The notes under the pieces: generated by a model
The model's database searches: none
Told to the model about the DNA's origin: nothing
The model's input: the letters and a program-made list of their open reading frames with translations, nothing else
Origin: Halorientalis sp. IM1011
GTDB taxonomy: Archaea; Halobacteriota; Halobacteria; Halobacteriales; Haloarculaceae
Direction: 5' to 3'
Assembly (NCBI RefSeq): GCF_001989615.1
Contig: NZ_CP019067.1
Span: 620,001-684,000 of the forward strand
DNA: 64,000 bases
Shown here: piece by piece, positions 3,056 to 7,319 of the stretch
Numbering within the stretch: position 1 is the first letter of the stretch
Layout: each line of letters opens with the position of its first letter
Made by a program: the position numbers and the translations under genes

Positions 3056-3754
3056 GTGGACGTGACTTTCCGGGACCGGGCCGCCCTGCTCGGCGACACG
3101 CTCGTCTGTGCCGACCTCCACGTCGGGAAGGCCGCGGCCGCGAACGTCTCGCTCCCCCTCGGCGAGCGCGACCACCTCGTCGACCGCGTGACCGCGCTCT
3201 GTGCACGGTACGACCCGGCGACGGTCGTGTTCGCCGGCGACCTCCTGCACTCCTTCGACCAGGTCGCCACGGCCGCCGAGGAGACCGTCGCCGCCCTCGA
3301 TCAAACGGTCCGGGACGCGGGTGCGCGGCCGGTCGTTACGCCGGGCAACCACGACACGATGCTCGACGTGGTCTGGTCCGGCCCGACAGCCCACGAGTTC
3401 GAGGTCGAGACCGACAGCGGGACCGCCGTGATCTGTCACGGCGACCACGAACCCGCGACCGAGGCGGACCTGTACGTCGTCGGGCACGACCACCCGACGA
3501 TTACCGTCGAGGGCAAGAAGTGGCACTGCTACCTCTACGGTCGCGAGGGCTACGACGGCGCGGACCTGCTCGTCCTCCCCGCCTTCTCCCACCTGATCGA
3601 AGGCGTCTCGATCAACCGGCGTTACGGCGGGACCGCCTCGACGAACTCGCCGCTGATCGGCGACCTCGACCGGTTCCGGCCCGTCGTCTGGGACGACGAG
3701 GCCGAGGAAGTTCGGGAGTTCCCACCCCTCGGCGAGTTTCGGGACCTACTGTAG
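3056..3754 (+). CDS. Metallophosphoesterase
   Basis: Calcineurin-like phosphoesterase of 232 residues. The metal ligands are visible in order: CADLHVGKA, FAGDLLHS, GNHD, CHGDHEP and GHDH, the full dinuclear-metal set. Small archaeal members next to helicase genes act on nucleotides or nucleic acids, but the substrate here cannot be read from sequence. The start is GTG at 3056. The last 9 bases overlap the end of the convergent FAD-enzyme gene. Confidence 0.88.
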   Translation: MDVTFRDRAALLGDTLVCADLHVGKAAAANVSLPLGERDHLVDRVTALCARYDPATVVFAGDLLHSFDQVATAAEETVAALDQTVRDAGARPVVTPGNHDTMLDVVWSGPTAHEFEVETDSGTAVICHGDHEPATEADLYVVGHDHPTITVEGKKWHCYLYGREGYDGADLLVLPAFSHLIEGVSINRRYGGTASTNSPLIGDLDRFRPVVWDDEAEEVREFPPLGEFRDLL

Positions 3755-4999
3755 CCGTTCGGCAGCGATGCGACCGCTCTCCAGCGCCCCCTGGATCGAG
3801 GACCAGCGAGTGTAATCGCCCGCGAGGACGACGGGACCCTCGGGCGCGTCGACCGTGGGCAGATCTCCGCGAAAACCCGGGGGCTGGACGAACTGGGCCA
3901 CGTCGATCCGGTCGGTCCGCAGGAGTTCGAGGGAATCGAACTGGCGCTCGGGGTACCACTGGCCCAGTACTTCGCGGGCACGGGCGTGAAGTTCGTCGTC
4001 GCTCGCGTCAGGGTCGCCGAGCCACGTCGCGCTCAGCTGCGTCCGGTCGTCGGGCGCGTACTCGGACGCGACCGTCGAGAGTGGCGCGACCTGATTCGGT
4101 TCCGCGTCGCGGGCGTTCAGGACGATCTTTTTGCCGGTCTCCAGTTCGACGTGGCCCGGGAGCCCGTAGTACTGGGTGACACAGCCGCGGATCTCGGTCG
4201 GGACGGCAACGTCCGTCAACTCGGCCGCAGTCTGGGGATCGGTGGCGACGACCGCGCTGTCGGCGTCGATCGACTCCCCGTCGGTCTCGACGGTGACGCC
4301 GCCGTCGCCCACGTCGAGACTCGTGACCCCGACGCCGAGTTCGATCTCTGCACCTGCGGCGCGGGCGCGGTCGGCCAGTTGCTCGGTGATCGCACCCATC
4401 CCGTCTGCGGGGACGGCCGTCTTCCCCTCGGCGAGCATCTTGAAGGTGTAGCGGAATACGCCGGCGTCGCTCGACAGCGAGCGGTCCAGCGTGATCCCGC
4501 CGTAGAACGGCTCGGCGAAGTTCTCGACGAACTTCTGGGAGAAGCCCCGGTCTTTCAGGTAGGCCCGCACGTCCTCGGTCTCGTCGGGGTCGAACAGCGT
4601 GCCGGTGTCGGCCGCCTTGAGGTCCCGCTGGAGTTTGAAGAGGCGGAGTTTGTCGCCCAGCGTCACGTCGGTGTTGAACAGCGTGTCCGAGAGGTCGCCC
4701 GGACTGGAGAGGGGGTCGGCCAGCACCGACCGGCGGCCTGGGTGGGCGATGGCCGCGCCGGCCGAGAAGTACCGCAGGTCGAGGGCGTCGTAGTCCAGTT
4801 CCCGCCGCGCCGCGGGATAGGCGGTGAACAGCACCTGAAAGCCGCGGTCGAAGACGAACCCGTCCTCGCGGACCGAGCGGACGCGGCCGCCCACCTCCTC
4901 GCGCGCTTCAAGCACCGTCACGTCCTGGCCAGCATCGGCGAGGTGGCGGGCCGCGACCAGTCCGGCCAGCCCCCCGCCGACGACCACGGCGTCTGTCAT
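3746..4999 (-). CDS. FAD-dependent amine oxidase / phytoene desaturase-like oxidoreductase
   Basis: 418-residue flavoprotein. It opens with the dinucleotide-binding VVVGGGLAGLVAARHL, has the GGRV step at about residue 40 (EEVGGRVRSV), and ends with the second FAD segment VVLAGDYTRWSSIQGALESG, the pattern of the amine oxidase/phytoene desaturase superfamily. Carotenoid or other isoprenoid substrates are plausible but not shown. The frame extends upstream to 5065, but the fold starts at MTDAVVVGGG, giving the start at 4999. Confidence 0.85.
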   Translation of the reverse strand: MTDAVVVGGGLAGLVAARHLADAGQDVTVLEAREEVGGRVRSVREDGFVFDRGFQVLFTAYPAARRELDYDALDLRYFSAGAAIAHPGRRSVLADPLSSPGDLSDTLFNTDVTLGDKLRLFKLQRDLKAADTGTLFDPDETEDVRAYLKDRGFSQKFVENFAEPFYGGITLDRSLSSDAGVFRYTFKMLAEGKTAVPADGMGAITEQLADRARAAGAEIELGVGVTSLDVGDGGVTVETDGESIDADSAVVATDPQTAAELTDVAVPTEIRGCVTQYYGLPGHVELETGKKIVLNARDAEPNQVAPLSTVASEYAPDDRTQLSATWLGDPDASDDELHARAREVLGQWYPERQFDSLELLRTDRIDVAQFVQPPGFRGDLPTVDAPEGPVVLAGDYTRWSSIQGALESGRIAAERLQ

Positions 5000-5094
5000 G
5001 CCCGGAGGAACGGGTGGGACCCACAAAAGGGTCCTGTGGCCGGCCGACTCCTGTCGCCGAAACAACTATTGGATCGCGACTACGACGGTAGTTC

Positions 5095-5376
5095 ATGAGC
5101 GCCGACGCGGGTCCCCGCGACAGCGACGCGACGGCCGGGCGGTCCCGACCCCAGTTCGGTGCGATCATCGTCGCGACCGTCTCCGCGTTCGTCCTCGCGT
5201 ACAGCCTCTTTATCGTCCAGACTCCGATCCTCGGTACGCTCGTCGTCCTCCTGCTCGCCGGCGGGTACACGGTCTGGCGGGCCGGTCGCTGGTTCGCCGC
5301 CGCCTACGATCGCCGGACGGCGGCCATCGAGCGCGTGGCCGACTCGCTGGGAGACCCAGCCGAACGCGAGCGCTGA
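5095..5376 (+). CDS. Small two-helix membrane protein
   Basis: 93 residues: a polar, Asp/Arg-rich N terminus, two hydrophobic helices (about residues 22-42 and 45-60) and a charged cytosolic tail (RRTAAIERVADSLGDPAERER). Codon use fits a real gene and spacing to neighbours is tight. I do not recognise a function. It lies divergent from the FAD oxidoreductase and upstream of the threonine-synthase-like gene. Confidence 0.7.
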   Translation: MSADAGPRDSDATAGRSRPQFGAIIVATVSAFVLAYSLFIVQTPILGTLVVLLLAGGYTVWRAGRWFAAAYDRRTAAIERVADSLGDPAERER

Positions 5377-5429: not shown

Positions 5430-6620
5430 ATGACCGACAACCCGGCCGTTCGGGACCTCACCTGCCGCGCGTGTGGCGACTCGTTCGACCCCGCGGAGAC
5501 GACCGGCACCTGCCCGTCGTGTGACGGCCACCTCACTGTCACCTACGACCTCGACGCGGTCGATTTCACGCCCGAGACCACCACGGAACGACGCTACGAG
5601 GGCATTGCCCGCTACGCCGAGTTGCTCCCCTTCACGGCCGAGACGCTGGTGACGATGGACGAGGGCGCGACGCCGCTGGTTTCCTGTCCGAGCCTCGCCG
5701 ACGAGTGGGGCGTCGGCGAGGTGTACGTCAAAGACGAGGGCCGAAACCCGACGGGGAGCGTCGCGGACCGCGGGATGGCGGTGGCGGTGACCGCGGCCGC
5801 CGAGGCCGGGGCCGACGACGTGGCCCTGCCGACGACGGGCATCGAGGGGCAGGCAGCGGCCGCCTACGCCGCTCGTGCGGGGCTTGACTCCCATTCGTTC
5901 GTCCCCTCGCGGGCGACCTTCGACGCCAAGGCGATGATCAACGTCCACGGCGGCGACATGGAAGTCGTCGGCGGGCGCTACGGCGACGCCGTCGAGGCCT
6001 TCCACGAGACCGTAGCGGAGGAAGGCTGGCACTCGCTGGCTCCCTTCGAGACGCCCTACCGTCGGGAAGGAGCCAAGACGCTGGGCTACGAACTCCTCGA
6101 GCAACTCGACTGGGAAGTTCCAGACGCAGTCGTCTACCCCACCGGCGAGGGGGTCGGTCTCGTCGGCACCTACGCCGGCACGCGGGATCTGGCCGACCTC
6201 GGCGTGGTCGAGGACACGCCGGCGATGTACGCCGCGCAGGCCGCCGGGTGTGCCCCCATCGTCGAGGCGTTCGAGAACGGCGAGGAGGACACCGCGGTCT
6301 GGGAGACGCCCGACACGATCTGTGGCGGCGTCGAGATCCCCGACCCCGCCGGCGGGCCCGACGTACTGGCGGCCGTCCGGGAGAGCGACGGCGGGGCGGT
6401 CGCGACCGAGGACCGGGACGTGCTGGAGGGCGCGGTCAGCATCGCCCAGTCCGAAGGGGTCGAACTCGGCGCGACGGCCGGCGTCGCGGCCAGCGGCGCG
6501 GCGAGGCTCGCAGAGCAAGACGAGTTCGGCCCCGACGACACCCTCGTACTGGTGAACACGCTCACCGGCAACGCCGAGGCCGACGTGCTCCGCAGTCACC
6601 TCATGAGCAAGGGGATCTGA
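5430..6620 (+). CDS. Threonine synthase-like protein lacking the PLP lysine (probable pseudoenzyme)
   Basis: 396 residues with clear threonine-synthase architecture: an N-terminal zinc ribbon (CRACGDSFD...CPSCDG), then a fold-type II PLP domain with YVKDEGRNPTGS and AAYAARAG. The cofactor motifs are altered. SFK(A/D)RG reads SVADRG, so Ala112 (GCG at 5763-5765) replaces the Schiff-base lysine; the TGNAG-like loop reads TGIEG; the glycine-rich phosphate loop reads TGEGVG. Length and frame are intact, so this is not a decayed gene. It sits 3 bases before a LysE/RhtB-type exporter, suggesting a sensing or regulatory role rather than catalysis. Alternatively it performs a different PLP-independent reaction. 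Confidence 0.85.
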   Translation: MTDNPAVRDLTCRACGDSFDPAETTGTCPSCDGHLTVTYDLDAVDFTPETTTERRYEGIARYAELLPFTAETLVTMDEGATPLVSCPSLADEWGVGEVYVKDEGRNPTGSVADRGMAVAVTAAAEAGADDVALPTTGIEGQAAAAYAARAGLDSHSFVPSRATFDAKAMINVHGGDMEVVGGRYGDAVEAFHETVAEEGWHSLAPFETPYRREGAKTLGYELLEQLDWEVPDAVVYPTGEGVGLVGTYAGTRDLADLGVVEDTPAMYAAQAAGCAPIVEAFENGEEDTAVWETPDTICGGVEIPDPAGGPDVLAAVRESDGGAVATEDRDVLEGAVSIAQSEGVELGATAGVAASGAARLAEQDEFGPDDTLVLVNTLTGNAEADVLRSHLMSKGI

Positions 6621-6623
6621 CCG

Positions 6624-7319
6624 ATGGCGGCGAGTCCCGTCGCGTCGCTGGGTGCCGGGGTCCTGTTCGGACTGGCGCTGGCGGCTCCGCCCGGGCCGAT
6701 GAACGCCGTCATCGCCGAGGAGAGCGTCCTCCGCGGCTGGCTAGCGGGCGTTACCGCGGGCCTCGGTGCGATGCTCGCCGACGCCTGCTTCTTCGTGCTC
6801 GCGCTGGTCGGGATCGTCACGGTCGTCCAGGACGCGCCGACGCTGCGCGGGGCGATGATCCTCGGCGGCGGTGCGTTGATGCTGTACTTCGCGATCGGCG
6901 CGGCGACGAGCGCTCGCGAGGCCCTGACCGTCGAGTCCGAAGCGGCGGCGACCGAGGAGGGTGTCGGCCGCGGGTTCCGGAAGGCGTTCGTGCTGGCGCT
7001 GACCAACCCCTACCAGATCGCGTTCTGGCTGACCGTCGGTGTCGGTCTGCTCGAACCCGGGACGGTGGACGTACTCGAAAAGACACCTTACGTCGGCGCG
7101 GAACTCGCGGGCCTGGTGGTCGTCCGAACCGGCAGCCCGCTGTTGCTCACCGGACTGTTCGCGGGTATCGTCTGCTGGATCGTCGGATTCCCGACGGCGC
7201 TACGCGCGGCTGGGAAGCGGGTCGACCGTCTCACGCCGGTGGTCGCCGGCGGGAGCGCGGTCGTACTGGCCGGCTTCGGCCTCCTCTTCGTGGCCGACGG
7301 GCTGGGGACGCTGCTCTAG
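6624..7319 (+). CDS. LysE/RhtB-family amino-acid exporter
   Basis: 231-residue membrane protein with about six transmembrane helices and the family signature near the N terminus (LAAPPGPMNAVIAEESV), typical of LysE-type translocators that export amino acids such as lysine, threonine or homoserine. It follows the threonine-synthase-like gene by 3 bases, so the two are almost certainly one transcript; threonine or a related metabolite is therefore a reasonable guess for the substrate. The end overlaps the convergent HD gene by 4 bases. Confidence 0.88.
   Translation: MAASPVASLGAGVLFGLALAAPPGPMNAVIAEESVLRGWLAGVTAGLGAMLADACFFVLALVGIVTVVQDAPTLRGAMILGGGALMLYFAIGAATSAREALTVESEAAATEEGVGRGFRKAFVLALTNPYQIAFWLTVGVGLLEPGTVDVLEKTPYVGAELAGLVVVRTGSPLLLTGLFAGIVCWIVGFPTALRAAGKRVDRLTPVVAGGSAVVLAGFGLLFVADGLGTLL

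Follow-up and report, generated by a model that had tools for sequence, protein, structure and literature searches.

The ThrC-like gene and its product

The window analysed is a stretch of 64,000 nucleotides from Halorientalis sp. IM1011 (NZ_CP019067.1, positions 620,001 to 684,000). It possesses a gene for a protein of the threonine synthase (ThrC) type, followed by a LysE-family gene. Both open reading frames lie exactly where the preliminary description had placed them, and the gap of 3 bases claimed there was also found, as the stop codon of the first gene ends at 6620 and the ATG of the second is at 6624. The features of the locus are as follows.

5430..6620, plus strand: ThrC-like (PALP, PRK08197-type) protein without PLP lysine, 396 aa (ORF, Pfam, NCBIfam, AlphaFold2, Foldseek)
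5463..5522, plus strand: zinc-ribbon cysteines C12, C15, C28 and C31, intact (sequence)
5760..5765, plus strand: V111-A112, at the F-K invariant in Lys-bearing relatives (Schiff-base lysine, T. thermophilus K61; alignment)
5835..5846, plus strand: T136-G137-I138-E139 replacing A-G-N-A (T. thermophilus N87 and T88 positions; alignment)
6042..6062, plus strand: PFETPYR segment, with P205 a convergent position, F206 at T. thermophilus S155 and R211 (R160) kept (alignment)
6147..6149, plus strand: E240 in the PLP-phosphate loop PTGEGVG, an invariant G in Lys-bearing relatives (alignment)
6624..7319, plus strand: LysE-family (PF01810) putative exporter, 231 aa (Pfam 3e-25), whose functional link to the ThrC-like gene is unsupported

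The ThrC-like gene starts with ATG and its frame is intact. By sequence (Pfam E = 3.2e-62) and by fold, its product belongs to the PALP, fold-type II superfamily (PF00291). It scored 340.8 bits with the NCBIfam model NF006050, "threonine synthase" (cut-off 303), and five other proteins without the lysine scored 324-347 bits. An AlphaFold2 model predicted with 43 relatives reached a pLDDT of 95.6 and a pTM of 0.94, and its best PDB matches in Foldseek were all threonine synthases (6NMX_A, TM 0.78/0.89). The fold as modelled is intact.

The lysine motif reads NPTG-SVADRG; its residue 112 is Ala, from the codon GCG at 5763-5765. In the Asn loop the sequence is TTGIEG (I138, E139) and in the phosphate loop PTGEGVG (E240), while the CxxC...CxxC pattern of the zinc ribbon is retained. 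The earlier observation of a full-length protein with Ala112 at the PLP lysine, two altered cofactor loops and a preserved zinc ribbon was thus confirmed, including the frame and the length of 396 aa. No other conserved lysine is available for the Schiff base. A relocated lysine was rejected, as the lysines that the Lys-less proteins conserve (101, 167 and 216) are also present in the Lys-bearing proteins. Sequencing error was ruled out as well, since every Halorientalis relative examined (60-87% identical) lacks the lysine; the closest relatives, 82-87% identical, are Halorientalis species.

Compared with ThrC (EC 4.2.3.1; T. thermophilus 1UIM/1V7C, B. subtilis 6NMX), the window protein has the same fold and order of motifs, and it keeps NPTG-S..DRG, Gly137, R211 and the zinc ribbon of haloarchaeal ThrC. 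Unlike ThrC, it is changed in the PLP lysine (A112), the N87-type Asn (I138) and the PLP-phosphate loop (E240). The residues T88, S155, N188 and R160 of T. thermophilus ThrC, which we take to be the ligands of the substrate phosphate, correspond to E139, F206, E240 and R211, and only the last of these is kept.

The paralogue family and the loss of the lysine

The same genome encodes a separate canonical ThrC (L002, C1:1583690), which possesses SFKDRG and the classical loops and is 38% identical to the window protein. An orthologue of this canonical ThrC occurs as a single copy in 83/83 well-assembled family genomes, in most cases 76-97% identical, and threonine synthesis is therefore covered without the window protein. 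The paralogue family to which the window protein belongs is present in 384 of the 391 genomes sampled from the class Halobacteria. After removal of near duplicates, 139 haloarchaeal orthologues were compared. Position 112 is Lys in 53 of them and another residue in 86, namely Ala (36), Thr (25), Val (10), Arg (4), Leu (3) and others. Almost all Lys-bearing members show [ST]FKDRG, SAGNAG and PTGGGVG, and Lys-less members vary at all three motifs. The zinc ribbon is largely retained in the Lys-less proteins (C12 in 84/86; C15, C28 and C31 in 76/86).

The Lys-bearing members of the NF006050/PRK08197 family, haloarchaeal and bacterial, represent the orthologous gene and have the TPYR..G segment in common with the window protein; their rows are nested among the Lys-less ones. 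They differ from the window protein in possessing F-K-D-R-G, SAGNAG and PTGGGVG. At the phosphate-ligand positions they are also unlike ThrC, and their own substrate is uncertain. The haloarchaeal ones align Ala, Phe and Gly with T. thermophilus T88, S155 and N188, and only R160 is matched. Their PTGGGVG loop is similar to the GGGG loop found in dehydratases (compare VPIGGGGLI in L004). Threonine deaminase activity has been described for a cyanobacterial ThrC (PMC12172450). Judged from these residues, the ancestral activity of the Lys-bearing relatives may not be threonine synthesis. In Haloferax volcanii, a transposon-insertion mutant of thrC3 (HVO_2969, named threonine synthase) was rescued by a joint supply of glycine, serine and threonine (PMC4300041); this gene may lie on either the canonical or the paralogue branch. 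The name "threonine synthase" is almost certainly wrong for the Lys-less proteins, and it is doubtful for the whole paralogue family because even the Lys-bearing relatives are without the usual phosphohomoserine-binding residues. As a curated NCBI model gives this label to many haloarchaeal Lys-less genes, pathway reconstructions which count them are misled.

The preliminary description had proposed to check whether the Lys-less proteins form a separate conserved clade. They do not; the trees and the AU test found them polyphyletic. A single origin was rejected after removal of 13 pocket or convergent columns (AU p 3.3e-5), and with the 13 columns removed each tested pairing of Lys-less lineages was rejected too (p 1e-10 to 5e-5). 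Parsimony gave 5-7 state changes across three trees built without the diagnostic alignment columns. If a lost lysine is never regained, 6 to 14 losses are counted, the figure varying with the tree and the definition used. The lysine was lost at least four times. The exact number is uncertain because four Lys-bearing proteins, L108, L127, L134 and L136, lie inside the main Lys-less group.

The Lys-less lineages include the following four. One is a Natrialbaceae-like group beside Lys-bearing Natrialba, and another is Halococcus, which has a Lys-bearing neighbour from its own family in the trees. The third is a large Haloarculaceae-centred group which includes the window protein; inside it, L108 carries the lysine with canonical motifs beside Lys-less sisters. 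The fourth is L116, whose motif is also found in L225, a protein absent from the trees. In L116 the lysine codon AAG of its sister L115 is ACG, and the other pocket motifs are canonical; L116 and L225 are from sister species in which Lys is replaced by Thr and the rest of the pocket is intact. Because L116 keeps the rest of its pocket without the lysine, this state suggests a first step, with lysine loss preceding the other changes. The two proteins can be regarded as living intermediates of the change from enzyme to pseudoenzyme.

The opposite combination was observed in L127, L134 and L136 (genus code g12; 4001-5158 region of each), where Lys112 is present in an otherwise broken pocket with N138D, GGGVG changed to [ED]GT.G and two zinc-ribbon Cys changed. 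Their sister species have E, V or A at position 112. By its sequence context, this Lys112 is probably non-functional, regained or retained.

Pocket remodelling and selection

Positions of the pocket were assigned by aligning the proteins with T. thermophilus ThrC, whose residue numbering was checked. The Lys-bearing proteins have 159 invariant positions, 17 of which are changed in the Natrialbaceae-like lineage, 18 in Halococcus and 22 in the large group. Ten changed positions are common to the three lineages (34, 111, 112, 136, 156, 205, 215, 240, 247 and 307). The pairwise overlaps gave hypergeometric p values of 3e-7, 3e-16 and 2e-8, which are indicative, because the test assumes that any position could stand for any other and because the sharing of position 112 follows from the definition of the group. 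In the Lys-less proteins, relaxation is stronger in the PLP pocket than at the remaining invariant positions (permutation p 0.009). The lineages often arrived at identical or similar residues: Thr replaces A136, Ala replaces K215, Ala or Ser replaces V156, and F111 gives way to a smaller residue and G240 to a larger one (H/S/A/E). Residue 240 is E in Halorientalis, H in most Haloarculaceae and A or S elsewhere. Many pocket changes replace Gly or Ala by larger residues, and V242, G243 and Y236 drift freely.

Residue 34 of the window protein (5529-5531) is situated in the zinc-ribbon region, outside the known PLP pocket, and is changed in every listed Lys-less lineage including L116. These changes hint that the zinc ribbon may touch the active site.

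The Lys-less gene is under purifying selection. Within Halorientalis its dN/dS is 0.12-0.19, compared with 0.08-0.19 for the neighbouring LysE gene and 0.08 and 0.23 for two Lys-bearing pairs. The Lys-less lineages have longer branches (median from the most recent common ancestor to the tip 1.17 vs 0.48 for the Lys-bearing ones). Several residues show little or no variation among the Lys-less proteins (E103, T108, D113, R114, P159, R161, K167, N171, H173, P209, R211 and G214), and R388, S389, L391, M392 and G395 near the C-terminus are invariant. The maintenance of the gene serves something apart from the PLP site. The window family thus combines, as a pseudoenzyme does, the loss of an indispensable catalytic residue with the retention of the gene by selection.

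Possible role of the Lys-less proteins

The preliminary description had proposed a non-catalytic sensor of threonine or phosphohomoserine, evolved from threonine synthase and controlling the export through the adjacent LysE protein. The pseudoenzyme part of this proposal stands, with the lysine lost, the pocket remodelled, the fold intact and the gene under purifying selection; the sensor and its control of the exporter are not supported, given the polyphyly and the pattern of LysE adjacency. The tight LysE spacing of 3-15 bp is a feature of Halorientalis, where most species show it, and R211, at the phosphate-ligand position R160 of T. thermophilus, is kept in 84/86 Lys-less proteins; both would suit a sensor. 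A further check proposed there was whether the exporter always adjoins the Lys-less proteins. LysE was found within 700 bp downstream at only 26/86 Lys-less loci (27/86 if the locus of the window, omitted from the automated count, is added) and also at 10/53 Lys-bearing loci. An association of LysE adjacency with lysine loss was not found over phylogenetically independent pairs, of which few are informative. A LysE orthologue is present, adjacent or elsewhere, in 114/116 genomes of the family, so that adjacency does not track the loss. Relatives with the same neighbour thus keep the lysine, which by the reasoning of the preliminary description itself refutes a coupling with the exporter. This refutation does not extend to the loss of PLP catalysis, because those relatives are Lys-bearing orthologues of the kind that gave rise to the Lys-less ones. 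A FAD amine oxidase and an HD protein, unrelated by annotation, are near the ThrC-like gene as often as LysE or oftener in both groups, among counts which cover the named neighbours of the window only. The FAD amine-oxidase family gene, situated upstream on the opposite strand in the window (3746-5065, minus strand), is near the gene at 62/85 Lys-less and 21/53 Lys-bearing loci. Because such unrelated neighbours are equally or more conserved, LysE seems to belong to an old chromosomal block. The linkage to the exporter is neither conserved nor exclusive. Pfam and NCBIfam profile searches of the window proteins revealed no DNA-binding or signalling domain, which also speaks against a sensor. 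A role in exporter control is possible but unsupported, and the sensor as a whole is very unlikely.

PLP can bind Lys-less PLP sites non-covalently, and rare PLP proteins work without lysine. The remodelled pocket might accordingly host a new PLP-independent activity or use PLP without a Schiff-base lysine. The recurrence of derived residues in lineages of separate origin might reflect a new activity instead of a loss, and the convergent changes at A136, K215 and G240, including His240 in 44/86 Lys-less proteins, could build a new site. This is nevertheless unlikely, as residue 240 differs by lineage, the positions 242, 243 and 236 are free to vary, and the exchange of Gly or Ala for larger residues is what would be expected from the filling of an empty cofactor site. 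A dead paralogue which activates or stabilises a catalytic partner, for example in a heteromer with canonical ThrC, would agree with the constant presence of canonical ThrC in well-assembled family genomes, with a fold capable of forming an interface and with the invariant C-terminal residues. The well-assembled genome G013 possesses canonical ThrC and no member of the paralogue family, and such a partnership seems improbable here. The faster evolution of the Lys-less lineages might point to a gene decaying towards loss. The frames are full length throughout, the dN/dS is low, the absence of the lysine recurs in dozens of species and independent assemblies agree; a pseudogene or an assembly error is already refuted by the recurrence together with purifying selection, and decay is scarcely credible.

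It is probable that the protein is a recurrent PLP pseudoenzyme which keeps a non-catalytic role already held by its Lys-bearing ancestor. Its origin would be a Lys-bearing, fold-type-II, threonine-synthase-like paralogue near universal in Halobacteria, and this enzyme would already have served in a further, non-catalytic way, for instance by binding a partner or ligand with parts of its surface away from the PLP pocket. In lineages that could spare the chemistry, the non-catalytic role alone would have been retained; the lysine would have been lost several times, in place at the orthologous gene, which purifying selection would then have held. Without the lysine no internal aldimine could be formed and no substrate returned from one, and the reshaped pocket would fit an empty or differently filled cofactor site. 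We infer with high confidence from the sequences that Lys-less proteins would carry out no ordinary PLP catalysis, and with moderate confidence that they keep a non-catalytic role common to the Lys-bearing ancestor. A pre-existing second role is favoured because in-place loss in several lineages would be easiest that way, and it is the retention of the gene by itself from which the ancestral function is deduced. More tentatively, and with somewhat less than even probability, the Lys-bearing paralogue may be bifunctional, its PLP chemistry having been discarded at least four times through a common pocket series, the lysine first and then the filling of the cofactor site, to give class-wide regulatory pseudoenzymes in amino-acid metabolism. 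If true, a regulatory pseudoenzyme family of amino-acid metabolism is hidden under the name threonine synthase.

Lys-less pseudoenzymes with a PLP fold and dead paralogues kept as regulators are already known. The available part of the report on M. tuberculosis Rv3778c describes a PLP-enzyme fold without Schiff-base lysine that is predicted to be non-catalytic, as is the window protein; Rv3778c is related to cysteine desulfurase, of another PLP group, and recurrent parallel loss is not described in that part (PMC12910592). The dead deoxyhypusine synthase paralogue (prozyme) of trypanosomatids is, like the window protein, kept by selection beside an active homologue, and it works there as an obligate heteromer activator, a link which for the window protein is conjectural (PMC3663545). 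A search of the openly accessible literature found no report on a Lys-less threonine synthase, an absence which is weak evidence. The unusual part is the parallel, repeated loss and convergent remodelling in one near-universal orthologue. Such recurrent loss of a defining catalytic residue represents a natural replicate experiment on the origin of pseudoenzymes.

Other members of the family were also observed. Several genomes carry, in addition to Lys-less copies, members of a deep, separate Lys-bearing branch with NPTNTFKDRG (L138, L148, L156, L159, L164, L177, L182, L183 and L203). In genome G115 (genus code g53), the best-matching family copy, L226 (about 4001-5119), is Lys-less with NPTGTFLDRG; in this genome, the only one of g53 examined for copies, it occurs alongside canonical ThrC (L232) and the Lys-bearing L227 and L228. 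Several g53 genomes (G147:C27, G235:C11, G113:C11 and others) possess ThrC-like matches with one in-frame stop in the aligned stretch.
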